64,000 bases of DNA from Mycolicibacterium arabiense (GTDB lineage Bacteria > Actinomycetota > Actinomycetes > Mycobacteriales > Mycobacteriaceae). Under the pieces are notes generated by a model. That model was given only the letters and a program-made list of their open reading frames with translations, searched no databases and was not told the origin of the DNA. The stretch covers positions 1,860,001-1,924,000 of the forward strand of contig NZ_AP022593.1 in the NCBI RefSeq assembly GCF_010731815.2. Direction: 5' to 3'. The translations under genes and the position numbers were made by a program. Shown in pieces: positions 35,732-53,243 of the stretch (its first letter is position 1; every line of letters starts with the position of its first letter).

Positions 35732-37129
35732 ATGACCAACACCCTGCCGTCCAAGAGCGGAACCAACCAGCGCCCCCGACGCGCCGGATCCGAGAGCGGC
35801 ATCGGCCTGCAACGGCCCAAGCGCACGGCGACGTCCATCGGGCTCGCCCTCGTCACTCCCCTGGTCGGTCAGGAGTTCCTCGACCGCTACGGCCTGCGCG
35901 ACCCGCTCAACCGCGGTCTGCGCTACGGCGTGAAGACGGCGTTCTCGGCACTCGGCGCGTCCACCCGCCAGTTCAAGCGGGTGCAGGGCGGCGGCAAGCC
36001 CCCGACCCGGTTGAAGCCGAGCGGCGCGGACTACTTCGACCTCACCCCCGACGACGACCAGAAGATGATCGTCGAGACGGTCTCCGAGTTCGCCGAGGAG
36101 ATCCTGCGGCCCGCCGCCCACGACGCCGACGCGGCCGCGACGTACCCGCAGGGCCTCATCGCCAAGGCCGCCGAACTCGGCATCACCGCGATTAACGTCC
36201 CCGAGGACTTCGACGGCATCGCCGAGCACCGCAGCACCGTCACCAACGCCCTGGTCGCCGAGGCGCTCGCATACGGGGACATGGGTCAGGCATTGCCGAT
36301 CCTGGCCCCCGGCGGTGTGGCGTCGGCCCTGACCCACTGGGGTAGCGCGGATCAGCAGGCCACCTACCTCAACGAGTTCGCAGGCGAGAGCGTGCCGCAG
36401 GCATGCGTCGCCATCGCCGAGCCGCATGCACTGTTCGATCCGACCGCACTGAAGACCACCGCGGTACGGACCCCCAGCGGCTACCGCCTCTCGGGCGTGA
36501 AGTCGCTGGTACCCGCAGCCGCCGACGCCGAACTGTTCATCGTCGCCGCGCAGCTCAACGGCAAGCCTGCACTGTTCATCGTCGAGTCGGCCTCCGAGGG
36601 CCTCACGGTCAAGGCCGACCCCAGCATGGGCATCCGCGCCGCCGCGCTGGGCCGCGTCGAATTGAACGACGTGGCCGTGCCGCTGCACAATCGGCTAGGT
36701 GAGGACGACGCCAGCGACTCGGACTACTCCGAGGCGATTGCGCTGGCCCGATTGGGTTGGGCCGCACTGGCAGTCGGCACCTCGCACGCGGTGCTCGACT
36801 ACGTCGTGCCCTACGTCAAGGAACGCGAGGCGTTCGGCGAACCCATCGCGCGCAGGCAGGCCGTCGCCTTCATGTGCGCCAACATCGCCATCGAACTCGA
36901 CGGCCTCCGCCTGATCACCTGGCGAGGCGCCGCGCGCGCCGAGCAAGGCCTGTCGTTCGCGCGAGAAGCAGCGCTGGCCAAGCGCATCGCCACCGACAAG
37001 GGCATGCAGATCGGCCTCGACGGCGTCCAGCTGCTCGGCGGCCACGGCTTCACCAAGGAGCACCCGGTGGAGCGTTGGTATCGCGACCTGCGGGCTCTCG
37101 GCGTCGCCGAGGGTGTCGTCGTCCTCTAA
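35732..37129 (+). CDS. fadE24: Acyl-CoA dehydrogenase FadE24
   Basis: A 465-residue acyl-CoA dehydrogenase homologue of M. tuberculosis Rv3139. A ~90-residue N-terminal extension rich in Arg and Lys precedes the usual helical, beta and C-terminal helical domains (for example DGVQLLGGHGFTKEHPVERWYRD). Together with FadE23 it probably forms a mixed-subunit enzyme, as do other paired FadEs in mycobacteria; that is inference. It is preceded by a perfect 22-bp palindrome and followed 35 bases later by fadE23. Substrate unknown. Confidence 0.88.
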   Translation: MTNTLPSKSGTNQRPRRAGSESGIGLQRPKRTATSIGLALVTPLVGQEFLDRYGLRDPLNRGLRYGVKTAFSALGASTRQFKRVQGGGKPPTRLKPSGADYFDLTPDDDQKMIVETVSEFAEEILRPAAHDADAAATYPQGLIAKAAELGITAINVPEDFDGIAEHRSTVTNALVAEALAYGDMGQALPILAPGGVASALTHWGSADQQATYLNEFAGESVPQACVAIAEPHALFDPTALKTTAVRTPSGYRLSGVKSLVPAAADAELFIVAAQLNGKPALFIVESASEGLTVKADPSMGIRAAALGRVELNDVAVPLHNRLGEDDASDSDYSEAIALARLGWAALAVGTSHAVLDYVVPYVKEREAFGEPIARRQAVAFMCANIAIELDGLRLITWRGAARAEQGLSFAREAALAKRIATDKGMQIGLDGVQLLGGHGFTKEHPVERWYRDLRALGVAEGVVVL

Positions 37130-37164
37130 CGGCCACGCAACACACCAGGAACGGAAAACCAGTC

Positions 37165-38373
37165 ATGGCAATCAATCTCGAAATGCCGAAGAAGTTGCAG
37201 GCCGTCATCGACATGGCCCACGAGGGCGCCGCGGAGATGCTGCGGCCGATCTCGCGCAAGTACGACCTGGCCGAACACGCCTATCCCGTCGAGCTGGACA
37301 CCCTCGCCGACCTGTTCGAGGGAATCACCGAGGCCAACACCATCTCCTTCGCGGGCACCGATGCCTTTCGCGGCGTCGACGGGCCGAAGGAAAACGTGAA
37401 CGGCGCCAACATGTCTGCGCTCGTGAACGCGCTCGAGATCAGCTGGGGCGACGTCGCCCTGCTGCTGTCGGTGCCCTTCCAGGGCTTGGGCAATGCCGCC
37501 CTGTCGGGTGTCGCCACCGACGAACAACTCGAACGCCTCGGCAAGGTATGGGCCGCAATGGCCATCACCGAGCCCAGCTTCGGGTCGGACTCGGCCGCCG
37601 TCTCCACCACCGCGAAGCTCGACGGCGACGAGTACGTCATCAACGGCGAGAAGATCTACGTCACCGCGGGCGCCCGCGCGAGCCACATCGTCGTGTGGGC
37701 GACGCTGGACAAGTCCAAGGGCCGTGCCGCGATCAAGTCGTTCATCGTGCCGCGCGACCACCCCGGCGTCTCGGTCGAGCGGCTCGAGCACAAGCTGGGC
37801 ATCAAGGCGTCCGACACCGCCGCCATCCGCTTCGACAACGCGCGGATTCCCAAGGAGAACCTGCTCGGCAACCCGGACATCCAGGTGGACAAGGGGTTTG
37901 CGGGCGTCATGGAGACGTTCGACAACACCCGGCCCATCGTGGCGGCGATGGCCGTCGGCGTCGCACGGGCGTCGCTCGAGGAACTCCGCAAGATCCTCAC
38001 CGAGGCCGGGGTCGAGATCTCCTACGACAAGCCGGCACACGCGCAGAATGCCGCGGCCGCGGAGTTCCTCCGCATGGAGGCCGAGTGGGAGTCCGGTTAC
38101 CTGCTGACGCTGCGCTCGGCGTGGCAGGCGGACAACAAGATCCCGAACTCCAAGGAGGCGTCGATGGGCAAGGCGAAGGCCGCACGCGTCGCCTCCGACG
38201 TCACGCTGAAGACCGTGGAACTGGCCGGCACCACCGGCTACTCCGAGGAAATGCTGCTGGAGAAGTGGGCCCGCGACTCCAAGATCCTCGACATCTTCGA
38301 GGGCACCCAGCAGATCCAGCAGCTCGTCGTCGCTCGCCGGCTGCTCGGCCTGTCTTCTGCAGAGCTGAAGTAA
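37165..38373 (+). CDS. fadE23: Acyl-CoA dehydrogenase FadE23
   Basis: A 402-residue acyl-CoA dehydrogenase, homologue of Rv3140. The FAD-binding strand reads MAITEPSFGSDSAAVSTTA, and the C-terminal FAD motif is DIFEGTQQIQQLVVARRL. The ATG at 37165 is chosen because the frame upstream is a shadow of fadE24. In the same direction as fadE24 and probably co-transcribed; a hairpin at 38386-38409 follows its stop by 12 bases. Likely partner of FadE24. Confidence 0.9.
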   Translation: MAINLEMPKKLQAVIDMAHEGAAEMLRPISRKYDLAEHAYPVELDTLADLFEGITEANTISFAGTDAFRGVDGPKENVNGANMSALVNALEISWGDVALLLSVPFQGLGNAALSGVATDEQLERLGKVWAAMAITEPSFGSDSAAVSTTAKLDGDEYVINGEKIYVTAGARASHIVVWATLDKSKGRAAIKSFIVPRDHPGVSVERLEHKLGIKASDTAAIRFDNARIPKENLLGNPDIQVDKGFAGVMETFDNTRPIVAAMAVGVARASLEELRKILTEAGVEISYDKPAHAQNAAAAEFLRMEAEWESGYLLTLRSAWQADNKIPNSKEASMGKAKAARVASDVTLKTVELAGTTGYSEEMLLEKWARDSKILDIFEGTQQIQQLVVARRLLGLSSAELK

Positions 38374-38385
38374 CCCAGACCCGCT

Positions 38386-38409
38386 GTCCCGACGCGCTAG
38401 CGTCGGGAC
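38386..38409. promoter_or_regulatory. Perfect hairpin/palindrome abutting the fadB4 start codon
   Basis: Two perfect 10-bp arms (38386-38395 and 38400-38409) with a 4-base spacer end exactly at the fadB4 ATG (38410). A -10-like box, TAGCGT (38398-38403), lies inside it. If fadB4 is leaderless the palindrome is an operator over the promoter; if it is read through from fadE23 the RNA hairpin would hide the start codon or end the fadE23 transcript. Confidence 0.7.
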
Positions 38410-39408
38410 ATGGATTCCTTCAACGCTCTCGTCGCCCGGCAGGACGGCGATCGGATCACCACGGCCATCGAGACACTGAGCCACGACGACCTGCCGCCGG
38501 GTGACGTCACGATCCGGGTTGCCTACTCCAGCGTGAACTTCAAGGACGCGCTCGCCGTCACTCCCAAGGGTGGCGTCGTGCGCGACTACCCCATCGTTCC
38601 GGGCATCGATCTCGCGGGCGAGGTCGTCGACTCGCAGTCCCCGGACTTCAACGTCGGCGACCAGGTGCTGGCGCACGGCTACGACATCGGTACCGCGAAG
38701 CACGGCGGCTACGCCGAGTACGCCCGGCTGCCCGCCGACCAGGTGGTCCATCTCGGCGCACTGAGCGCAGACGACGCCATGGCCATCGGCACGGCAGGCT
38801 TCACCGCCGCGCTGAGCGTCCAAGCACTCGTCGACCGTGGCATCACACCGGACGACGGCGAGATCGTCGTCACCGGCGCCACGGGCGGCGTGGGATCGCT
38901 CTCGATCGACCTCCTGGCATCCGCGGGCTACACGGTCGTGGCGTCGACCGGCAAGCAGGACGCCTCCGACCACCTCAGGGCGCTGGGCGCCAGCGAGGTG
39001 ATCCCCCGGCTGCCCGAGGACCCCGACGCCAAGCCCCGGCCCCTGAACAAGACGCGATGGGCCGGCGCCGTGGACTGCGTCGGCGGCGCCACGCTGGCCC
39101 ACGTCCTGAGCACCGTCGCGTACGGCGGCGCCGTGGCCGCGAGCGGGCTGACGGGCGGCCCGGCACTCAACACCACCGTGATGCCGTTCATCCTGCGCGG
39201 AGTGGCGCTGCTGGGCATCGACTCGGTCCTGCTACCCATCGAGCCGCGGCGGGAGCTGTGGCAGCGGCTGGGCGACTCGATGCGACCTCAGCACCTCGAC
39301 AACGTAAAACACCCCGTCGATGTCAAGGACGTGGTGTCCGTGATCGACGAGGTGCGGGCCGGCCGTTACTCCGGCCGGGGTGTGGTGCGGGTGGCGGGCG
39401 GTTTCTAA
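38410..39408 (+). CDS. fadB4: Zinc-free quinone/acrylyl-CoA reductase-like oxidoreductase FadB4
   Basis: A 332-residue medium-chain dehydrogenase of the AcuI/YhdH type, homologue of Rv3141. It has the NADPH motif GATGGVGS and no zinc-binding residues. AcuI-type members reduce acrylyl-CoA or similar enoyl compounds with NADPH. It lies 36 bases after fadE23. No Shine-Dalgarno sequence fits, and a leaderless promoter is likely. The name fadB4 is inherited from M. tuberculosis and does not prove a beta-oxidation role. Confidence 0.88.
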   Translation: MDSFNALVARQDGDRITTAIETLSHDDLPPGDVTIRVAYSSVNFKDALAVTPKGGVVRDYPIVPGIDLAGEVVDSQSPDFNVGDQVLAHGYDIGTAKHGGYAEYARLPADQVVHLGALSADDAMAIGTAGFTAALSVQALVDRGITPDDGEIVVTGATGGVGSLSIDLLASAGYTVVASTGKQDASDHLRALGASEVIPRLPEDPDAKPRPLNKTRWAGAVDCVGGATLAHVLSTVAYGGAVAASGLTGGPALNTTVMPFILRGVALLGIDSVLLPIEPRRELWQRLGDSMRPQHLDNVKHPVDVKDVVSVIDEVRAGRYSGRGVVRVAGGF

Positions 39409-41275: not shown

Positions 41276-42430
41276 ATGGCAACCTCCATCACCGACGACT
41301 TCGTCGCACGGCTCGCCGATCGCGCGCGCGGCGCCGAGCAGATGCGGCGTCTGCCAGACGAGACACTCGACGACCTCGCGACGACCGGCTTCACCGAACT
41401 GCTGGTGCCCAAGCGCTTTGGTGGCGACCAGGCGGCGTTCCCAGAGGTGCTCGACCCCGTGCGGCGCATGGCCCACGGCTGCACGTCGAGTGCGTGGACC
41501 ATCGGCTTCTACGCCCTGCACAACTGGATGCTCGCGTTGTTCGGCGAGCAGGCCCAGGAGGAGGCGTTCCGCGCGCGGCCCTTTCTGGCGCCGGCCCCGC
41601 TGGCGCCCACCGGCCGCGGCCTGCCCACCGACGGCGGCATCCGGCTGACCGGCAGATGGTCGTGGGCCACCGGCGCGATGGGCGGCAACTGGATGATCGT
41701 GGCCTGCATCTGCGGCCCCGACGACCCCGCGGCCCTCTACCCCGCTCTGGCACTGCTCCCCATCGGCGACGTGACGATCGAGGACGTCTGGCACACCGAC
41801 GGCATGTGCGCGACCGGGTCCAACGACGCCGTCGTCACCGACGTCTTCGTGCCCGACCATCGGATGGTGCGGGTCGCCGACGTCTACGGCGGCACGGCTC
41901 CCGGTGCCCAGCTGCACGACAGCCCGACCTATCGGTGGCCGCTGGTGCCCGCGCTCGCCCTCCTCGCCGCCATGCCCGCACTGGGCAGTGCCGAGCGCGT
42001 CGCGCAGATGTACGCCGACCGGGTGGGGCAACGCGTACTGGCCTACGAGGGCGTGAGGCAAAAAGACAAGCCCATCGCTCAGGCTCGGCTTGCGGAGGCC
42101 AGGGTGCGACTGCGCGCACTGCACGGGCTGCTTCGGTCCACCGTCGACCAGATCGAGGCGACGGTGACCGCGGGCGAGGTCGTGGAGCGTCAGGTGCGTG
42201 GCGATGCGCGGATGGCGGCCGCGCACGTCGTGCACGAATCTCGGGCGGTCATCGCCATGCTGTTCGAGGCGTCGGGCGCCAGCGTGCACTTCCTCGACAA
42301 CCCACTGCAGCGCTTCAAGCGCGACGTCGACGTCCTGTCCGGCCACGTGGTGTTCGACTACGACACCAGCCGCGAATTGGCAGGCGCCTTGACGCTCGGC
42401 ATGAAGATCCCACGCACGGCGATGGTGTGA
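41276..42430 (+). CDS. HsaA-like flavin-dependent monooxygenase / acyl-CoA dehydrogenase fold
   Basis: A 384-residue protein of the acyl-CoA dehydrogenase fold, of the group that contains the two-component flavin hydroxylase HsaA rather than true dehydrogenases. Typical are the Ser/Thr-rich segment HGCTSSAWTIGFYALHNWMLALFG and the DVWHTDGMCATGSNDAVVTDVFVPDH strand; the catalytic Glu of dehydrogenases is not visible. HsaA-type enzymes ortho-hydroxylate phenols with reduced flavin from a partner reductase. The neighbouring F420-type gene and dioxygenase gene support an aromatic pathway. Substrate unknown. Confidence 0.72.
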   Translation: MATSITDDFVARLADRARGAEQMRRLPDETLDDLATTGFTELLVPKRFGGDQAAFPEVLDPVRRMAHGCTSSAWTIGFYALHNWMLALFGEQAQEEAFRARPFLAPAPLAPTGRGLPTDGGIRLTGRWSWATGAMGGNWMIVACICGPDDPAALYPALALLPIGDVTIEDVWHTDGMCATGSNDAVVTDVFVPDHRMVRVADVYGGTAPGAQLHDSPTYRWPLVPALALLAAMPALGSAERVAQMYADRVGQRVLAYEGVRQKDKPIAQARLAEARVRLRALHGLLRSTVDQIEATVTAGEVVERQVRGDARMAAAHVVHESRAVIAMLFEASGASVHFLDNPLQRFKRDVDVLSGHVVFDYDTSRELAGALTLGMKIPRTAMV

Positions 42431-42445
42431 GGAAGGCTGCGATGC

Positions 42446-42835
42446 ATGGCCGACCACCTGCGTGACCGCTTCACCGCCTTCTTCCAGAAGAACGTCGCCA
42501 ACCCGGTGATGCGTCGGAATCCCCTGCAGACGCTGCTGGAGACGACGGGGCGCAAGTCCGGTCAGCCGCGGCGAACTCCGCTTGGCGGGAGCCGGGTCGG
42601 GAACGAGTTCTGGTTCGTCTCCGAGTTCGGCGACCAGTCGCAGTACGTCAAGAACATCCAGGCGAATCCCCGGGTGCGGGTGCGCCTGCGGGGACGTTGG
42701 CATTCCGGGGTGGCGCACCTCGTGCCCGACGACGACCCCCGGCGTCGGCTCCAGTCGCTCCCCTCGTTCAACAGTTTCGGCGTGCGCACATTCGGCACCA
42801 ATCTCTTGACGATTCGGGTCGATCTCGACAATTGA
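42446..42835 (+). CDS. Ddn-like F420H2-dependent nitroreductase-family protein
   Basis: A 129-residue split-barrel protein of the deazaflavin (F420)-dependent nitroreductase family, to which Ddn belongs. Seen are LLETTGRKSGQPRRTPLGG, EFWFVSEFG, and QYVKNIQANPRVRVRLRGRW. Fifteen bases separate it from the flavin monooxygenase-like gene, so they are probably co-transcribed. It might feed electrons to, or act after, that enzyme; this is only inferred from position. Confidence 0.83.
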   Translation: MADHLRDRFTAFFQKNVANPVMRRNPLQTLLETTGRKSGQPRRTPLGGSRVGNEFWFVSEFGDQSQYVKNIQANPRVRVRLRGRWHSGVAHLVPDDDPRRRLQSLPSFNSFGVRTFGTNLLTIRVDLDN

Positions 42836-42861: not shown

Positions 42862-42881
42862 AACTAATGTCACTTTTAGTT
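42862..42881. promoter_or_regulatory. Inverted repeat before the dioxygenase gene
   Basis: AACTAA-N8-TTAGTT lies about 21 bases before the start of the dioxygenase gene (42903) in an unusually A/T-rich patch. It resembles a TetR-type operator and would mark a separate promoter for the second half of the catabolic cluster. Confidence 0.5.
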
Positions 42882-42902
42882 CACTGCGCCGAAGGAGTCG
42901 CC

Positions 42903-44048
42903 ATGGAATCGTTCGTCCACCTCCGCAAGGGCACCACGCCCAAGCGGCTGCACGCGGATCTCGACGGGCTGAAAGACGACGAACTCGGCCGCAGTGGCTT
43001 CGTCGGTCGCACCGCGAACATGTACCGCCGCAACGACCCAACGGCGTACCGGTCGGTCGGCCCCCTGCGCCCGGTCGACGTGCTGTCGAGCGAACTGAAG
43101 CCCAGCGATGCCACCGACGCGCACGGCGGCCCGATGCTGATGTTCTCCAACGCCGACTGCCAGGTGCTGCTCTCGCGACGCAGCGAGCCGATGCCGTTCT
43201 TCGTCCGCTACGTCGACGGCGACCTGCTGTCGTTCGTGCACGAGGGCTCCGGACTGCTGGAGACCGAGTTCGGTCCGCTGCGCTACCGCGCCGGCGACTG
43301 GGTCTACATCCCGAAGGCGTGCACGTGGCGCCAGGTGCCTGACTCACCCGGGGGGCAGGAGCGCAGCGACTCGGGGGAAGGCACGAGTGCGTCCACGTGG
43401 CTCATGGTGCAGGCCACCGATGAGTTCCGGGTGCCGCCGCCGGGAACACTCGGCAGGCACTTCCCCTTCGATCCGTCCCAGACCGGGATTCCAGACCCGC
43501 AGCCCATCGACGACGGCGACGGACCCTTGGTCGACGGCGAGTACGAGGTCCGGCTCATCCATGACGGTGGCCCGACGTCGCTGTTCTACCAACACCATCC
43601 GCTCGACGTGGAGGGTTGGCGCGGCGACAACTTCGCGTTCACGTTCAACATCGCCGACTACAACGTCGTCACCTCCGACAGCGTCCACCTGCCGCCGACG
43701 GTGCACCTGTTCATGGAGGCGACCGGCGTCTACGTCATGAACTTCCTGCCCAAGCCCGCCGAGAGCAGGCCCGGCACCGAGCGCACGCCGTGGTACCACC
43801 GCAACGTCGACTTCGACGAGATCGCGTTCTTCCACAGCGGCTCGCTCTACGGCATCCCGATGCCGCCGGGTCTGATCTCCCATGCGCCGCAGGGGGTTCA
43901 CCACGGAGCGCCGGAGAAGGCGCGGGAACGTGCGCGCCGTAAATTCGGCGACTACGACCGCGTCGACTGGTCGGTGATCGCCGTGGACACCCGGCGCCGA
44001 CTCATCCCGTCGCAGGAGATCCTCGCCAACGACCTCGGGCAGCATTAG
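42903..44048 (+). CDS. Homogentisate 1,2-dioxygenase family protein
   Basis: A 381-residue cupin-type dioxygenase homologous to homogentisate dioxygenase, which opens the homogentisate ring. Metal-site motifs are in YHRNVDFDEIAFFHSG and, near the end, GVHHGAPEKARER. GAAGGAG precedes the ATG at 42903. Residues 149-158 (PGGQERSDSG) come from a GC-rich repeat inserted in frame in a loop, so the protein carries about ten foreign residues. No maleylacetoacetate isomerase or fumarylacetoacetase is adjacent, so the true substrate may be a relative of homogentisate. Confidence 0.8.
   Translation: MESFVHLRKGTTPKRLHADLDGLKDDELGRSGFVGRTANMYRRNDPTAYRSVGPLRPVDVLSSELKPSDATDAHGGPMLMFSNADCQVLLSRRSEPMPFFVRYVDGDLLSFVHEGSGLLETEFGPLRYRAGDWVYIPKACTWRQVPDSPGGQERSDSGEGTSASTWLMVQATDEFRVPPPGTLGRHFPFDPSQTGIPDPQPIDDGDGPLVDGEYEVRLIHDGGPTSLFYQHHPLDVEGWRGDNFAFTFNIADYNVVTSDSVHLPPTVHLFMEATGVYVMNFLPKPAESRPGTERTPWYHRNVDFDEIAFFHSGSLYGIPMPPGLISHAPQGVHHGAPEKARERARRKFGDYDRVDWSVIAVDTRRRLIPSQEILANDLGQH
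43347..43376 (+). repeat. Short GC-rich repeat, copy 1, inside the dioxygenase gene
   Basis: Carries the core GGCAGGAGCGCAGCGAC (43354-43370), flanked by GGGG runs. Translated here as PGGQERSDSG without disturbing the frame. The same core is at 45245-45261, and, inverted with one change, at 46486-46517. Confidence 0.8.
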
Positions 44049-45226
44049 TGAGCGCCCCGACGAAGCACGCCTACGATCGCATCCCGTATCTCGTTGCCTA
44101 CCAGAACACCTCGGGTGTGCGCGACGTCTACGGCGGGGTTGCCGAACTCGTCGTGCTGGAGAGCTATCTGCTCAAGCCGGACACTCCGAGCGATACCGTG
44201 CTGGTGTTCATGCACCCGATCGGTGGGGGTGCGTATCTACCGATGATCAACGCCCTGGCCCGCGCCGGTCACCACGTCATCTACTGCAACAGTCGGTTCC
44301 GCGGCACCGACTCGGCGCTGCTGATGGAGAAGGTCGTCGAGGACCTCGGCGAGTGCATCAAGGACGCCAAGAACCGGCTGGGCTACGCCAAGGTCGTGCT
44401 GGCCGGCTGGAGCGGCGGCGGCTCGCTGTCGGCGTTCTACCAGCAGCAGGCGCAACACCCGACCGTCACCGCGAGCCCATCCGGCGACGGCCCCGATCTG
44501 ACGAAGCTCGGCCTGATCCCGGCAGACGGCATCATGCTGCTGGCAGCCCACGTCAGCAGGCACGGCACCATGACCGAATGGCTCGACGCGTCGATCCTCG
44601 ACGAGTCCGACCCGTCACGCCGCGACCCCGAGCTGGACCTCTACGACCCGGCGAACCCGAACCAGCCGCCGTACACGGCCGAGTTCCTCGAGCGCTACCG
44701 CGCGGCGCAGATCGCCCGCAACCGCCGGATCACCGCCTGGGTCAAGGACAAGCTGGCCGCCCTGCGGGCCGCGGGCCGCCCGGATGACGAGTTCGCGTTC
44801 GTCGTGCACGGCACCATGGCCGACCCGCGCTGGCTCGATCCGACCGTGGATCCCAACGAACGCACCCCGGGCACCTGCTATCTGGGCGATCCTCGGGTGG
44901 TGAACAACTCACCCGTCGGCCTCGCGCGGTTCTGCACATTGCGCAGCTGGCTCTCACAATGGAGCTATGACGACGCCAACGGTGACGCCGTGAAGGCCGG
45001 ACCCGACATCGCGGTACCCGCACTGGTCATCGGCAACCTCGCCGACGACGCCTGCACGCCGAGCCACACCCGCCGGTTGTTCGAGGCCATCGGGCATCCC
45101 GACAAGGAGATGCACGAGATCCCGGGCGCCAACCACTACTACGCGGGTCCGGACCAGCGCGACACCCTGCGACAGGCCGTCGGGATGTGCACGGATTGGC
45201 TTCGGCGGCACGGGTTCTCGGAGTGA
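44048..45226 (+). CDS. Alpha/beta hydrolase
   Basis: A 392-residue alpha/beta-hydrolase. The nucleophile is in AGWSGGGSL, an Asp is in NLADDACTP, and the His is in PGANHYYAGP. An insertion between core and lid covers about residues 140-260. Its GTG start overlaps the dioxygenase stop by one base, so the two are coupled; a role in hydrolysing the ring-cleavage product or a CoA ester is likely from position. The next gene overlaps its stop by four bases. Confidence 0.82.
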   Translation: MSAPTKHAYDRIPYLVAYQNTSGVRDVYGGVAELVVLESYLLKPDTPSDTVLVFMHPIGGGAYLPMINALARAGHHVIYCNSRFRGTDSALLMEKVVEDLGECIKDAKNRLGYAKVVLAGWSGGGSLSAFYQQQAQHPTVTASPSGDGPDLTKLGLIPADGIMLLAAHVSRHGTMTEWLDASILDESDPSRRDPELDLYDPANPNQPPYTAEFLERYRAAQIARNRRITAWVKDKLAALRAAGRPDDEFAFVVHGTMADPRWLDPTVDPNERTPGTCYLGDPRVVNNSPVGLARFCTLRSWLSQWSYDDANGDAVKAGPDIAVPALVIGNLADDACTPSHTRRLFEAIGHPDKEMHEIPGANHYYAGPDQRDTLRQAVGMCTDWLRRHGFSE

Positions 45227-46470
45227 CGGCCACCCCAACCGGCGGGCAGGAGCGCAGCGACCCGGGAAATGTATCCGGCCCGCTCGACGGCATCCGGGTC
45301 ATCGAGGTCGGCACGCTGATCTCGGGGCCGTTCGCCGGAAGATTGCTCGGTGACATGGGCGCCGAGGTCGTCAAGATCGAGCCGCCCGGTGCGCCCGACC
45401 CGCTCCGCACCTGGGGCCAAGCCGAACTCGACGGACACCACTTCTTCTGGACCGTGCACGCCCGCAACAAGAAGGCCGTCACCCTCAACCTCCGCGAAGC
45501 CAAGGGCCGGGACCTGTTCCTGGACCTGGTCGAGCAGTCCGACGTCATCGTCGAGAACTTCCGGCCCGGCACGCTGGAGAAGTGGGGTCTGAGCTATGAC
45601 GTTCTGCGACAACGCAATCGCGGCATCATCCTGGTACGGGTATCGGGCTACGGCCAGACCGGACCCGACTCGCACAAGGCCGGCTACGCTTCCGTCGCCG
45701 AGGCCGCCAGCGGCCTGCGACACATGAACGGCTTCCCCGGCGGCCCGCCGCCACGTCTGGCCCTGTCCCTCGGCGACAGCCTGGCGGGCATGTTCGCCGC
45801 CCAAGGCGCACTGGCTGCGCTGTACCGGCGCAGCGTGACCGGCGAGGGTCAGGTGGTGGACGCCGCCCTCACCGAGGCCTGCCTGGCGGTACAGGAATCG
45901 ACGATCCCCGACTACGACGTGGGCGGCGTCGTTCGCGGGCCGTCGGGCACCCGGCTCGAAGGCATCGCGCCGTCGAACATCTACCAGAGCGCCGACGGGA
46001 GCTGGGTGGTGATCGCCGCCAACCAGGACACGGTGTTCCGCCGACTGTGCAGCGCGATGGACCGCCCCGAACTGGCCACCGACGAGCGGTTCGCCGATCA
46101 CGTCAGCCGGGGCCGCAACCAGGACGAGATCGACGCGATCATCGGCGTGTGGGCCGCCGAACGCCAGCCCGCCGACATCATCGCGACGCTGTCGGCCGCC
46201 GGCGTGATCAGCGGCCCCATCAACACCGTCGCCGAGGTGGTGGCGGACCCTCAGCTGCAGGCGCGCGGCATGATCGCCGACCACTTCGACGAACGGATCG
46301 GTCGCAACGTCAAGGGCCCCGGCGTCGTGCCGGTGCTCTCCGATACGCCGGGCACCATCCGCAACGCCGGCTCCGCCACGCCGGGGCAGCACAACGACGA
46401 GGTGTACCGCGACCTGCTGGGCCGGTCGGCCGAGGACCTCGACGAGCTGCGAGCGGAGGGAGTCGTATGA
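45223..46470 (+). CDS. CaiB/BaiF-type CoA transferase
   Basis: A 415-residue class III CoA transferase that would move CoA onto a carboxylic acid. Family marks are GIRVIEVGTLISGPFAGRLL, GAEVVKIEPPGAPDPLRTW, and the catalytic Asp in VVDAALTEA. Residues 6-15 (TGGQERSDPG) are encoded by the second copy of the GC-rich repeat just after the start. The GTG at 45223 overlaps the hydrolase stop by four bases, and its own stop overlaps the lyase start by four. Confidence 0.88.
   Translation: MTATPTGGQERSDPGNVSGPLDGIRVIEVGTLISGPFAGRLLGDMGAEVVKIEPPGAPDPLRTWGQAELDGHHFFWTVHARNKKAVTLNLREAKGRDLFLDLVEQSDVIVENFRPGTLEKWGLSYDVLRQRNRGIILVRVSGYGQTGPDSHKAGYASVAEAASGLRHMNGFPGGPPPRLALSLGDSLAGMFAAQGALAALYRRSVTGEGQVVDAALTEACLAVQESTIPDYDVGGVVRGPSGTRLEGIAPSNIYQSADGSWVVIAANQDTVFRRLCSAMDRPELATDERFADHVSRGRNQDEIDAIIGVWAAERQPADIIATLSAAGVISGPINTVAEVVADPQLQARGMIADHFDERIGRNVKGPGVVPVLSDTPGTIRNAGSATPGQHNDEVYRDLLGRSAEDLDELRAEGVV
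45235..45266 (+). repeat. Short GC-rich repeat, copy 2, inside the CoA-transferase gene
   Basis: Contains the identical 17-base core at 45245-45261, near the 5' end of the CoA-transferase frame. It reads as TGGQERSDPG, the same frame as copy 1. Confidence 0.8.
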
Positions 46471-47414
46471 ACCCGCCGGATACACCCCCCGAGTCGCTTC
46501 GCTCCTGCCCGCCGGGTCACGTCACCATCCGCGAAGTCTGCCTGCGCGACGGCCTGCAGATCGAGGCACCGATTCCGTTGTCGGCCAAGCTCGAACTGCT
46601 CGACGCCGTGCTCGCCACCGGGGTGCGCGAGGTCGAGGCCACCGCGTTCGTCTCACCGTCGAAGGTGCCGGCACTGGCCGATGCTGCCGCGCTGGCGGCC
46701 GAACTGCCCCGGCTGCGTCAGCAGTACGACGTGGAGTTCTCCGCACTGGTCGCCGGGGCGGGCGGCGCCGGGCGCGCCGTCGCGGCCGGCATCGGTTCCA
46801 TCGAGTATGTGGTCTCCGCAGCCGACGGCCACAGTCAGGCCAACGTCGGCCGCTCGACCGCCGACTCGACCCACCTGATCGCCGACATCGCGAGGATCGC
46901 GCACGAACACGACGCCACCATCGAGGTGATCATCGCGACGGCGTGGGACTGCCCGTTCGACGGGCCCACCGACCCCCGCCGCGTGCTCGACATCGCAACG
47001 GCGGCAATGGAGATCGGCGTCGACCGGCTGGCCATCGCGGACACCATCGGCACCACCACGCCGCGGCGCGTCACCACGCTGGTCGAGGCACTCGCACCCG
47101 TGGTGGGCGACCTCCCGCTCGGCGCGCACTTCCACAACACCCGCGGTGCCGGCCTGGCAAGTGCGTACGCCGCGGTGTGCGCGGGCGTCACTCGGCTCGA
47201 CGCATCCGTCGGTGGGCTCGGCGGCTGCCCGTTCGCACCCGGCGCGAGCGGCAATATCGCCACCGAGGATCTGGTGTACATGCTGCGTGACAGCGACATC
47301 GGCGTCGACGTGGATCTCCCTGCTGCCATCCGCGCTGCCGACGTCGCCCGCCGGGTGGTCGGCCACGATCTGCCGAGCGCGCTGCTGCGCGCCGGTGACC
47401 GCATCCTGAGTTGA
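46467..47414 (+). CDS. Hydroxymethylglutaryl-CoA lyase family protein
   Basis: A 315-residue TIM-barrel lyase that splits HMG-CoA-like 3-hydroxyacyl-CoAs into acetoacetate and acetyl-CoA. Catalytic RDGLQ is at residues ~25-29; metal histidines are in GAHFHNTRG, and the flap signature is GGLGGCPFAPGASGN. Residues 7-17 (PPESLRSCPPG) come from the inverted copy of the GC-rich repeat. ATG overlaps the CoA-transferase stop (ATGA). It probably completes the same pathway. Confidence 0.88.
   Translation: MNPPDTPPESLRSCPPGHVTIREVCLRDGLQIEAPIPLSAKLELLDAVLATGVREVEATAFVSPSKVPALADAAALAAELPRLRQQYDVEFSALVAGAGGAGRAVAAGIGSIEYVVSAADGHSQANVGRSTADSTHLIADIARIAHEHDATIEVIIATAWDCPFDGPTDPRRVLDIATAAMEIGVDRLAIADTIGTTTPRRVTTLVEALAPVVGDLPLGAHFHNTRGAGLASAYAAVCAGVTRLDASVGGLGGCPFAPGASGNIATEDLVYMLRDSDIGVDVDLPAAIRAADVARRVVGHDLPSALLRAGDRILS
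46486..46517 (-). repeat. Short GC-rich repeat, copy 3, inverted, inside the lyase gene
   Basis: The reverse complement of this 32-base segment matches copy 1 with about two differences. On the plus strand it is read as PPESLRSCPPG at the start of the lyase. Confidence 0.8.
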
Positions 47415-47421
47415 GCACGCC

Positions 47422-48033
47422 GTGAAACAGGACGTCCTCACCGCCAAGGGCAGGCAGACCCGTGAGTCGATCGAACGCGCGGCGCGGAAGCTGTTCGCCG
47501 AGCGCGGCTTTCACGGCACCACCCTGGCGGACATCACGTCTGCGGCAGGCAAGTCGTCGGCTGCGTTCTACCGGTACTACACCGACAAGGAAGACCTGCT
47601 GTACGCGCTGGCGGAATCGTTCCTGCACGACGTCGTGATGCCGTCGGGGCTGACGGTGCACCTACCCGAGTCACCGGACGACACCGCGTTCTTCACCGCG
47701 GTGGTCACGGGGTACTGGAACATGTTCAAGCAGAACTTCGGCATCATGGTCGCGGTCAACCAACTCGCGGACACCAAGCCGCGCTTCGCCCACGTGCAGA
47801 ACGAGTTCCGGCGCTTCGGCATCGACATGGTCGCGGCGTCGGTACGCCGCGCCCATGAGCAGGGCCATGCCTCCGACGTCGATCCCGAGCACACGGGTGC
47901 GGCGATCGCGCTGCTGTTCGAGAACTTCACCGTGGTCTCGCTGCGCCCGTCGGGTCTGGGCTTGAACATCAGCGACGCCGATGCCATCACCACGCTCTCG
48001 ACGATCTGGAAGAAGACGCTGTACGGCTATTAG
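47422..48033 (+). CDS. TetR-family regulator of the catabolic cluster
   Basis: A 203-residue TetR-family regulator with the helix-turn-helix in TLADITSAAGKSSAAFYRYY (about residues 34-53) and a TetR_C-like ligand domain. GTG start at 47422, eight bases after the lyase stop. In the middle of the operon, it would sense a pathway intermediate. Candidate sites are the palindromes at 41247 and 42862. Confidence 0.85.
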   Translation: MKQDVLTAKGRQTRESIERAARKLFAERGFHGTTLADITSAAGKSSAAFYRYYTDKEDLLYALAESFLHDVVMPSGLTVHLPESPDDTAFFTAVVTGYWNMFKQNFGIMVAVNQLADTKPRFAHVQNEFRRFGIDMVAASVRRAHEQGHASDVDPEHTGAAIALLFENFTVVSLRPSGLGLNISDADAITTLSTIWKKTLYGY

Positions 48034-48059: not shown

Positions 48060-49319
48060 GTGGATTTCGCACTGCCCGAACACCTTCCCGGCCTGCTGGC
48101 CGAGATGGACGCCTTCATCGACGCGGAGATCAAGCCGCTCGAGGCCGAGCACATGCAGTACTTCGACAGGCGCCGCGAATACGCGCGCACCGACTGGGAG
48201 AACGACGGCATCCCCCGCCGGGAGTGGGAGGACCTGCTCGACGAGATGCGCAGGCGCGCCGACGCCGCGGGCTGGCTGCGGTACGGGCTGCCGTCGCGGT
48301 TCGGCGGGCGTGACGGCACCAACCTCGACATGGCCGTCATCCGGGAACATCTGGCTCACAAAGGACTCGGTCTGCACAACGACCTGCAGGACGAGTCGTC
48401 GATCGTCGGCAACTTCCCCCAGGTCATCATGATGGACCGGTTCGGTACCGAGGAGCAGAAGCGCGACTGGATCGAGGCCCTGCTGACCGGCACGCGGTCG
48501 ATGGCCTTCGGTCTCTCCGAACCCGGCCACGGATCCGACGCCACCTGGCTGGAGACCACGGCCGTCGCCGACGGGGACGGGTGGGTGATCAACGGGACCA
48601 AGCGGTGGAACACCGGCGTCCACCGCGCCACCCACGACCTGGTCTTCGCCCGCACCTCCGGCGAGGCAGGCCAGGCGCGCGGCATCACCGCGTTCCTGGT
48701 CCCGACCGACACCCCTGGATTCACCGTGCCGTTCTACTGGTGGACGTTCAACATGCCCACCGACCACGGCGAGGTGGAACTCGAGGACGTGCGGGTGCCC
48801 GCCGACGCCGTACTCGGAGAAGTGGACCGCGGACTCGAGGTCGGGCAAACCTTTCTGCACGAGAACAGGATTCGGCAGGCCGCGAGCAGCCTCGGTGCAG
48901 CGCAGTTCTGCATCGACCGCGCCGCGGAATACGCCAGTGAGCGAGTGGTGTTCGGCAAGCCGCTGTCGGTGAACCAGGCCGTGCAGTGGCCGCTCGTCGA
49001 ACTGCAGACCGAGGCGCAGATGGTGCGGCTGCTGGTGTACTACGCCGCGTGGCACCTCGACCGCAATCACCACATGGAGGTCAGCGACAAGGTGTCGATG
49101 GCCAACTACCGCGCCAACCGGCTGGTCTGCGAGGCCGCCGACCGCGCGATGCAGGTGCACGGCGGAATCGGCTACAGCCGCCACGAACCGTTCGAGCACA
49201 TCTACCGCCATCACCGGCGCTACCGGATCACCGAGGGCGCCGAGGAGATCCAGATCCGCCGGGTCGCGCAGCGGATGTTCAAGTTCGGCTCGCGGCGCGA
49301 AGAGCCGAAGGCGCCGTGA
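48060..49319 (+). CDS. Acyl-CoA dehydrogenase, LvaC/ACAD11-like
   Basis: A 419-residue acyl-CoA dehydrogenase family protein. Family marks are MAFGLSEPGHGSDA, GERVVFGKPLSVNQAVQWPLVEL-like text (SERVVFGKPLS) and MQVHGGIGYSRHEPFEHIYRHHR. In place of a dehydrogenase Glu the tail has RYRITEGAEEIQIRRVAQ. Coupled with an APH-type kinase and a DUF6285 protein, it fits the LvaC role: removing phosphate from 4-phosphoacyl-CoA during conversion to 3-hydroxyacyl-CoA. That role is inferred from gene order. GTG start. Confidence 0.82.
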   Translation: MDFALPEHLPGLLAEMDAFIDAEIKPLEAEHMQYFDRRREYARTDWENDGIPRREWEDLLDEMRRRADAAGWLRYGLPSRFGGRDGTNLDMAVIREHLAHKGLGLHNDLQDESSIVGNFPQVIMMDRFGTEEQKRDWIEALLTGTRSMAFGLSEPGHGSDATWLETTAVADGDGWVINGTKRWNTGVHRATHDLVFARTSGEAGQARGITAFLVPTDTPGFTVPFYWWTFNMPTDHGEVELEDVRVPADAVLGEVDRGLEVGQTFLHENRIRQAASSLGAAQFCIDRAAEYASERVVFGKPLSVNQAVQWPLVELQTEAQMVRLLVYYAAWHLDRNHHMEVSDKVSMANYRANRLVCEAADRAMQVHGGIGYSRHEPFEHIYRHHRRYRITEGAEEIQIRRVAQRMFKFGSRREEPKAP

Positions 49320-50299
49320 ACTCCGAGGACCTCGGGCCCGCACTGGCCGCGGTGCTGGCACCCTCGCTCGGCGACGTCCGGGTGGAAGACCTGCGCGTCC
49401 TGACCGGTGGCGCGAGCCGGGCGACGTGGGCGTTCAATGCAGTGACCGGTGGCCAGGGCGAGCGGCCGCTGATCCTGCGCATCGGCCCACCCGACGAGGT
49501 GCACGCCGGCATGACGCTCGAGGCGGCGGCACTGACCCGGGCGGCGGCCGCCGGTGCGCCGGTCCCCCACGTCCTGGTCGCCGAGGACGCCACGACGTCG
49601 CTGGGCAGTCCGTTCCTGGTGTGCGACTTCGTCGGCGGCGAGACCATCGTGCGGCGCATCCAGCGTGCGCTCGACGACGCCTCCCGGGCCGAGCTGCTCA
49701 CCCAGTGTGCGGGTGCGCTCGCGACGATCCACTGCGCCGACGCCGACGGCATCGGCCTCCCGGCCACCGACCAACTCGAGGAGTGGCACGGCCAGCTCGA
49801 CGAGATGGGCGACACTACCGCCACATTCGAGTGGGCATTCCGCTGGCTGGCCGCAAACCGGCCCCCGGTGTCACCGACGGTGCTCGTCCACGGCGACTTC
49901 CGGATGGGCAATCTCATCATCGACACCGAGGCCTCGCCTGCCCGGCTGGCGGCGGTACTGGACTGGGAACTCACCCACGCCGGCGAGATCTACGAGGACA
50001 TCGCGTGGTTCTGCATCAGAGCGTGGCGCTTCGGGGCACCCCGGTCACTCGGCGCCGGGGGGCTGGGCAGCGTCGAGGACTTCCTGCGCGCCTACGAGGC
50101 GGCGTCGGGCGTCTATTTGGATCGCGCTGCCGTGCACTGGTGGCTGGTGCTGGCGACCCTGCGGTGGGGCGTCATCTGCCGGTACCAAGCCGAGCGGCAC
50201 CTCTCGGGCCAGACCCGGTCGGTCGAGTTGGCGGCGATCGGGCGCCGGGTGTGCGAGACCGAGTTCGACCTGCTCACCCTTCTCGAGGAGCACGCATGA
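49316..50299 (+). CDS. APH-family kinase, LvaA/ACAD10-like
   Basis: A 327-residue phosphotransferase of the aminoglycoside-phosphotransferase fold. The catalytic loop is LVHGDFRMGNLI and the metal site AVLDWELTHAGE. In the Pseudomonas levulinate pathway LvaA uses such a kinase to phosphorylate the 4-hydroxyl of 4-hydroxyvaleryl-CoA, and mammalian ACAD10/11 carry the same domain fused to an acyl-CoA dehydrogenase. The GTG overlaps the upstream dehydrogenase stop by four bases, and its stop overlaps the DUF6285 start by four, supporting a joint complex. Substrate not known. Confidence 0.82.
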   Translation: MNSEDLGPALAAVLAPSLGDVRVEDLRVLTGGASRATWAFNAVTGGQGERPLILRIGPPDEVHAGMTLEAAALTRAAAAGAPVPHVLVAEDATTSLGSPFLVCDFVGGETIVRRIQRALDDASRAELLTQCAGALATIHCADADGIGLPATDQLEEWHGQLDEMGDTTATFEWAFRWLAANRPPVSPTVLVHGDFRMGNLIIDTEASPARLAAVLDWELTHAGEIYEDIAWFCIRAWRFGAPRSLGAGGLGSVEDFLRAYEAASGVYLDRAAVHWWLVLATLRWGVICRYQAERHLSGQTRSVELAAIGRRVCETEFDLLTLLEEHA

Positions 50300-50637
50300 C
50301 CCTCCACGGCAGGCCCACGGCCGCCGAACTCGTCGCGGCGGTGGCCGAGTTCCTCGACACCGAGGTGCGTGGGCAGTCGACCGGACCCGATGGTCGACCC
50401 ACGGGGGCGGTCGACTTCCATACCCGTGTCGCCGCCAACGCACTGCGGATCGTCGAGCGCGAACTGCTCGACACCGCACCCGATCCGGACTTCCTCGGCT
50501 TCGGCGACGAACGCGCGCTCGCGTCGGCGATCCGCTCGGGTGAACTCGACGACCGGGCAGCCGACGTCCTGCCCCTGCTGCGCACACTGGTCACCCGGCG
50601 CCTCGCCGTCGCGCACCCCGGGTACGAGGAGGAGTGA
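50296..50637 (+). CDS. DUF6285 protein, LvaB-like
   Basis: A 113-residue helical protein of the DUF6285 type (LHGRPTAAELVAAVAEFLDTEV at the N-terminus, VDFHTRVAANALRIVERELL in the middle). It overlaps the kinase gene by four bases. Small proteins at this place beside an APH kinase are needed by LvaA for activity, and this one should be the partner of the kinase at 49316. I assign the role from context, not from a catalytic motif. Confidence 0.72.
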   Translation: MTLHGRPTAAELVAAVAEFLDTEVRGQSTGPDGRPTGAVDFHTRVAANALRIVERELLDTAPDPDFLGFGDERALASAIRSGELDDRAADVLPLLRTLVTRRLAVAHPGYEEE

Positions 50638-52304: not shown

Positions 52305-52679
52305 ATGAACGCATACATACCCATCCTGGTCATCGGCGCGATCGCGACGCTCTTCGCGGTCGGCTCGGTGGGCATCGCGCTGCTGATCGGACCGAGGCGG
52401 TACAACCGCGCCAAGCTCGAGGCCTACGAGTGCGGCATCGAGCCGATCGAACGCGGGTCGGTCAACGGCTTGGCGACGGGTCAGCGGTTCCCGGTGAAGT
52501 ACTACCTGACGGCGATGCTGTTCATCGTCTTCGACATCGAGATCGTCTTCCTCTACCCGTGGGCCGTGTCGTTCGACTCGCTCGGACTGTTCGCCGTGGT
52601 CGAGATGCTGCTGTTCATGCTGACCGTGTTCGTCGCCTACGCCTACGTGTGGCGTCGCGGCGGACTCTCCTGGGATTGA
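52305..52679 (+). CDS. nuoA: NADH dehydrogenase I subunit A
   Basis: A 124-residue membrane subunit with three helices, first gene of the type I (proton-pumping) NADH:quinone oxidoreductase. Conserved loop [12 protein letters not shown] and [22 protein letters not shown] are present. The gap before it is the only large one in the operon, so transcription is likely to start there. Confidence 0.97.
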
Positions 52680-52685
52680 GGACGA

Positions 52686-53239
<554 letters not shown>

Positions 53240-53243
<4 letters not shown>

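Follow-up and report, generated by a model that had tools for sequence, protein, structure and literature searches.

Does an acyl-CoA dehydrogenase that is encoded together with an APH-family kinase and a DUF6285 protein act as the LvaC of an LvaABC system? This question is raised by a locus of Mycolicibacterium arabiense (contig NZ_AP022593.1, positions 1,860,001 to 1,924,000; this whole stretch of 64,000 nucleotides is called the window, and all coordinates below are window positions on the + strand unless stated otherwise). The genes encode the dehydrogenase P0001 (48060-49319; 419 residues, Acyl-CoA_dh_1 152.5 bits, over the Pfam cut-off), the LvaA-type kinase P0002 (49316-50299; 327 residues) and the DUF6285 protein P0003 of the LvaB family (50296-50637; 113 residues). 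Both junctions are four-base overlaps as described before, GTGA at 49316-49319, where the GTG start of the kinase lies inside the overlap with the preceding stop, and ATGA at 50296-50299. A preliminary description of the locus had called the set LvaABC-like and had assigned to it the conversion of a 4-hydroxyacyl-CoA to a 3-hydroxyacyl-CoA by LvaC chemistry. The likeness holds for two of the three proteins, as the kinase falls in the LvaA clade and DUF6285 is the LvaB family. The assigned conversion fails at the level of sequence, because P0001 lacks the phosphate residues and the Asp of this chemistry and lies outside the LvaC clade. We refer to the lineage of P0001 as ACADx.

In the alignment, the phosphate-binding residues R626, H634 and R637 of ACAD11 are replaced in P0001 by F265, Q273 and S276. 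The residue comparison covered 40 distinct ACADx sequences (49 rows minus nine duplicates, which altered no verdict), 17 LvaC-type and 15 other dehydrogenases; the HsaA-like row was left out, and L065 was excluded because its stretch extended beyond its own stop. Arg, His and Arg were present at the three positions in 0/40 ACADx and in 17/17 LvaC-type sequences, the latter having been picked by the R/H/R and Asp motifs themselves. The catalytic Asp (D753 in ACAD11) corresponds to E392 in P0001, and this column holds Glu in 40/40 ACADx and Asp in all 17 of the motif-selected LvaC-type sequences. Asp was also found in 7 of the 15 other dehydrogenases and is therefore not diagnostic of the LvaC type by itself. 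According to PMC12440821, non-conservative replacement of the R626/H634/R637 and Asp residues was the most disruptive to the activity of the dehydrogenase domain in ACAD10/11. The position of ACAD11 H597, with numbering counted by hand on the alignment, is H236 in P0001 and is His in 40/40 ACADx, 16/17 LvaC-type and 0/15 other sequences. The putative column of P463, a conserved Pro of human ACAD11 by which the pocket is opened, was likewise assigned by a hand count and is possibly off; it contains H106 in P0001, His in 39/40 ACADx and Pro in 13/17 LvaC-type sequences.

Two dehydrogenase trees were compared. In both of them ACADx forms a clade of its own with a support of 100/100, outside the LvaC clade; together with the Phe/Gln/Ser and Glu residues this rules out that P0001 is an LvaC. 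In the second tree, which was built without six long-branch and eight near-duplicate ACADx rows and with six other dehydrogenases from the same genome, ACADx is sister to LvaC/ACAD10-11 (99/96). The first tree, in which the long branches were retained and the six extra dehydrogenases were absent, leaves this relation unresolved. ACADx is thus probably a sister lineage of LvaC/ACAD10-11. A separate group of dehydrogenases occurs near proteobacterial ACADx, beside CoA transferases in L118, L119, L123, L124 and L125; its six rows, L061 included, form a 100/100 clade in both trees.

The kinase P0002 matches PF01636 (APH) with 122.1 bits (cut-off 23.2) and contains the stretches HGDFRMGN, VLDWE and WRF, so that the catalytic motifs HGDxxxxN and DWE are both present. 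By motif we distinguish two classes of kinases, the LvaA-like class with a WRF stretch, often found with DUF6285, and the ACAD10/11-like class with RQxxxW. In a tree of 71 rows, sampled with one mycobacterial kinase in ten and kinase matches above 90 bits only, the mycobacterial kinases and LvaA of the lva operon (L056/L057) share a clade of 47 rows (support 100/99). P0002 is most likely a kinase of the LvaA type, with hydroxyacyl-CoAs as the predicted substrates. A search of solved structures with P0002 gave 3dxp first (3e-13) and ACAD11 third (2.3e-8). R176 of ACAD11 was tried as a test residue for the kinase and did not discriminate, as both lva-operon LvaA sequences examined also lack the RQxxxW stretch. 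When the label 'next to ACADx' was placed on the kinase tree, at least 11 changes were needed, 7 of them forced by well-supported branches, which indicates that the pairing of kinase and ACADx has many separate origins or was repeatedly lost and restored.

P0003 matches PF19802 (DUF6285) with 62.1 bits (cut-off 28.1), and LvaB of the lva operon matches the same profile over the cut-off with 85.3 bits. In a profile search of the host genome the window contained the sole DUF6285 match. The predicted structure of P0003 is a four-helix protein (pLDDT 88, pTM 0.56) that had no match in the PDB at E<=0.001, and the fold was therefore dropped as a functional clue. A text search of the literature for the term DUF6285, with most subscription papers outside its scope, found no paper.

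To what extent the three genes belong together was assessed in 51 mycobacterial loci (19 from genomes and 32 on named contigs, two of the 32 being titled as other actinobacteria yet carrying the same cluster). These loci contain 50 distinct dehydrogenase sequences, since L174 and L049 are identical in this sequence and probably represent one genome. The order dehydrogenase-kinase-DUF6285 was kept in 51/51 loci, with the in-frame four-base overlap at the first junction in 44/51 and at the second in 50/51. With the order kept in all of these loci and the overlaps in most, the arrangement is not due to chance. We also checked whether kinase and dehydrogenase belong to unrelated families without co-occurrence, and found a kinase of the LvaA clade and a conserved coupling instead.

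DUF6285 was detected in 137 of 148 genomes sampled from the genus. Seven of the 11 genomes in which it was not detected had neither the dehydrogenase (E<=1e-60) nor the kinase (E<=1e-30). The other four had both in more distant forms (about 65% and 35% identity), with alignment ends ~20-30 bases apart; three of these four were examined, and each has a weak DUF6285-like frame close by (E about 1e-4). In all 13 genus genomes searched for the pair, dehydrogenase and kinase were either both present or both absent. Three genus genomes without the main cluster (L298, L299 and L300) contain a Nocardia-like module of kinase and ACADx, close to which a weak DUF6285-like frame is located. This module directly precedes gluconokinase and gluconate symporter genes, families that are over the cut-off in L299 and were recognised by eye in the other two.

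Outside mycobacteria, ACADx loci were taken as the best 80 of at least 580 by match to a Rhodobacteraceae sequence, which is not a random sample; 64 of the loci studied are non-mycobacterial, all distinct. A kinase lies within 2.5 kb of ACADx in 29/64 of them, the nearest ones being LvaA-like in 13, ACAD10/11-like in 12 and neither in 4 loci. The host genome has 28 APH-family matches, some partial, in 6.45 Mb, and by our arithmetic ~3% of genes would have a kinase that near by chance. With 51/51 mycobacterial and 29/64 other loci coupled, the link between ACADx and the kinase is real but not universal. Across the phylum, ACADx (E<=1e-110) was found in 17/296 genomes, and all 17 also contain DUF6285, not always adjacent to it. 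Archaeal ACADx is found together with a ~159-residue protein and a kinase on plasmids of Haloterrigena (L058) and Natrinema (L060). Hydantoinase/oxoprolinase and acetoacetate-decarboxylase-like genes surround them, in L058 also a gene for the gamma subunit of acetone carboxylase; the ~159-residue protein in L058 gave no PF19802 match.

Which reactions could this dehydrogenase take part in? As had been described, the set lies downstream of a gene for a class III (CaiB-type) CoA transferase (45187-46470; CoA_transf_3 401.7 bits) and one for an HMG-CoA-lyase family (HMGL-type) protein (46467-47414; HMGL-like 125.5 bits), both over the Pfam cut-offs. Absent from the earlier account was a TetR-family regulator gene (47422-48033, 203 residues) that separates the lyase gene from the dehydrogenase gene. 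The lyase also passes the curated NCBIfam cut-off of PRK05692/NF004283 (267 versus 246 bits). For the CoA transferase, whose start is uncertain because the open reading frame runs 40 bases into the preceding gene, the closest NCBIfam model is succinate--glutarate CoA-transferase (252.8 bits, far under the cut-off of 750). Further upstream are genes for an alpha/beta hydrolase (44048-45226, 392 residues) and for a remote relative of homogentisate 1,2-dioxygenase, called HmgA-like here (42867-44048; TIGR01015 E=4.8e-6, 25.5 bits, cut-off 510.75; PDB 3zds E=1.6e-6). Judging from the start of a relative, the HmgA-like gene may begin at 42903.

Gene presence in the 51 mycobacterial loci was counted by tblastn, and some loci end short of the full cluster. 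The CoA transferase, the lyase and the TetR regulator were each found in 49/51 loci, the hydrolase in 46/51 and the HmgA-like gene in 45/51. Two genes are members of the cluster only sometimes (10/51 loci each, again with some loci short): one for an HsaA-like oxygenase component of a flavin monooxygenase (41276-42430) and one of the F420H2-dependent quinone reductase family (Ddn-like, 42446-42835). The HmgA-like family has a match at E<=1e-20 in 49/296 phylum genomes. That the HmgA-like/hydrolase part is always tied to the kinase module was considered and rejected, since two other genomes of the family (L248 and L249) have the HmgA-like gene beside the hydrolase but at a distance from ACADx. 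HmgA-like and hydrolase genes are adjacent without a kinase module in other actinobacteria (L248, L249 and L253). Downstream of P0003 the nuo operon starts with nuoA (52305-52679) and nuoB (52686-53243), both with NCBIfam scores over the cut-offs. Just upstream of the cluster (35732-39408) are two more acyl-CoA dehydrogenase genes and an acrylyl-CoA-reductase-family gene, a block that we take to resemble fadE24-fadE23-fadB4 of M. tuberculosis.

The reading that we favour, though our confidence in it stays somewhat short of even, is that the kinase-coupled ACADx acts in a hydroxyacyl-CoA route by a chemistry other than that of LvaC. We infer its steps from the identity of the genes, their coupling, the family placement and the residue differences. 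The HmgA-like protein, a relative of oxygenases that cleave rings or C-C bonds, would together with the hydrolase release an acid, which the class III CoA transferase would load onto CoA. The kinase, with the DUF6285 protein as a subunit, would then phosphorylate a hydroxyl on this acyl-CoA. ACADx would convert the phosphoacyl-CoA, or a neighbouring intermediate, to an enoyl-CoA with the help of Glu392, FAD and a phosphate contact unlike that of ACAD11, and a 3-hydroxyacyl-CoA arising in the route would be split by the HMGL-type lyase. In a more far-reaching form, which we hold more tentatively still, ACADx may be a second lineage of dehydrogenases that process phosphoacyl-CoAs, separated long ago and present in bacteria and haloarchaea. 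It would have another phosphate site and a Glu base, may serve a different hydroxyl position or a substrate with a branched chain, and would be represented in mycobacteria by the conserved operon beside nuo.

Several observations weigh against a role of ACADx on phosphorylated substrates. All 40 distinct ACADx lack the ACAD11 residues by which the 4-phosphate is bound and have Glu as the base; the sister relation to LvaC depends on one taxon sampling; and the nearest solved structures of P0001 by sequence are ordinary dehydrogenases (1ukw, 4.5e-54), followed by ACAD11 (6e-40). No kinase was found within 2.5 kb in 35/64 non-mycobacterial loci, or in 25/51 where the flanks are complete, and ACADx therefore seems able to work without a neighbouring kinase. 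A family that resembles enoyl-CoA hydratase by eye is also repeatedly encoded close to ACADx outside mycobacteria (in 18 of the clustered loci, the clustering having taken in only genes found by a simple gene caller), and in L055 hydratases are annotated beside ACADx, one of them confirmed. These data would fit an ordinary FAD/ETF-dependent 2,3-dehydrogenase acting on an unphosphorylated acyl-CoA, while the kinase and DUF6285 protein would serve a different step of that pathway. We consider this rather unlikely, given the sister position of ACADx in the second tree, the His at the H597 position common to ACADx and LvaC, the joint presence or absence of ACADx and kinase in the 13 genus genomes and the repeated pairing of ACADx with two classes of kinases.

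A true equivalent of LvaABC, phosphorylating a 4-hydroxyacyl-CoA and passing it on to a 2-enoyl- or 3-hydroxyacyl-CoA as in Pseudomonas, was the proposal of the preliminary description. The lva operon, for which the original paper is said to be that of Rand et al. 2017, is found in L057 on the large P. aeruginosa plasmid p12939-PER, where it comprises a regulator, the kinase, lvaB (annotated by name), the dehydrogenase, a dehydrogenase-family gene at the place of LvaD and an acyl-CoA synthetase. It shares with the window the LvaA-clade kinase, the DUF6285/LvaB partner, an acyl-CoA dehydrogenase and the overlap of the kinase and LvaB genes, and this tight coupling with partners of the LvaA and LvaB type speaks for equivalence. 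However, the dehydrogenase of the window is of another lineage (Glu, no HCMR) and lacks precisely those residues whose replacement is most disruptive in ACAD10/11, while enzymes with the LvaC signature are located elsewhere in the genome. Moreover, CoA transferase, hydrolase, HMGL-type lyase and HmgA-like genes stand in place of the short-chain dehydrogenase/reductase (SDR) and acyl-CoA synthetase genes; no LvaD-type SDR or LvaE-type acyl-CoA synthetase was found among the genes scanned at 35.7-52.1 kb, a scan that did not take in every reading frame. The mammalian ACAD10 and ACAD11 likewise combine a kinase with an acyl-CoA dehydrogenase, of the probable sister lineage and with the H597 position in common. 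They differ from the window in being fusions instead of separate genes; the window kinase belongs to the LvaA subclass, is accompanied by DUF6285 and has no RQxxxW stretch, and the window dehydrogenase lacks the Asp and the three phosphate residues. On balance, true equivalence appears improbable.

Three dehydrogenases with LvaC determinants are encoded outside the window in the same genome, two of them beside kinases. At genome position 5557905-5559958 such a dehydrogenase gene overlaps an ACAD10/11-like kinase gene by four bases, and at 2663063-2665116 another converges on a kinase gene (the two pairs correspond to loci L285, L286, L288 and L289). As in the window, an APH-type kinase adjoins an acyl-CoA dehydrogenase in these pairs at 5.559 Mb and 2.663 Mb; unlike the window, they carry RLGGGRIHHAMR and DGPTEVH, the LvaC/ACAD11 determinants, and no DUF6285. 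If the organism uses the route of Pseudomonas and mammals, the unlinked LvaC-signature dehydrogenases are better candidates for 4-hydroxyacyl-CoA than the window set. In titles and abstract openings of the literature searched, most subscription papers being outside its scope, we found no 4-hydroxyacyl-CoA route in mycobacteria. The third enzyme, P0004 at 3.43 Mb, has the LvaC determinants, and the surrounding 18 kb (L033) gave no kinase match. As the profile search placed no DUF6285 match elsewhere in the genome, P0002 and P0003 could serve an unlinked LvaC-type dehydrogenase such as P0004, with ACADx merely residing in the same operon. This arrangement is less probable again, as ACADx and kinase genes overlap by four bases in 44/51 loci and either co-occur or are both missing in each of the 13 genomes, and the 28 APH-family matches of the genome offer alternative partners. 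A kinase substrate that is not an acyl-CoA, with P0002 as a drug-modifying or sugar phosphotransferase placed in the operon incidentally, is very improbable: the APH family is broad and P0002 shows a weak NCBIfam likeness to APH(3') (E=3.3e-8, far under the cut-off), but it belongs to a clade with the lva-operon LvaA, has a DUF6285 partner and is repeatedly paired with acyl-CoA dehydrogenases.

In M. smegmatis, whose genome of about 7 Mb is larger than that of the window, nuoA is MSMEG_2063 (PMC12702967, PMC12713383), and MSMEG_2071 is listed as a TetR regulator of 203 residues (PMC5705681). Because MSMEG_2071 equals the TetR regulator of the window in length and lies near nuoA, the ortholog of the operon is probably located there, with MSMEG_2071 as its TetR gene. 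Given its wide distribution in the genus and this probable ortholog in a laboratory species, the role of the operon is directly testable.

The enzymes for the use of hydroxyacyl-CoAs by a kinase plus a dehydrogenase were assigned only recently, and the known sequence rule of this chemistry is the Arg/His/Arg set and the Asp of LvaC and ACAD10/11. Gene order alone is insufficient for naming such sets 'LvaABC'. ACADx is repeatedly paired with the same two classes of kinases and yet breaks the rule, which would mean either that the chemistry is broader than this rule or that ACADx marks the point at which the phosphate strategy was lost.

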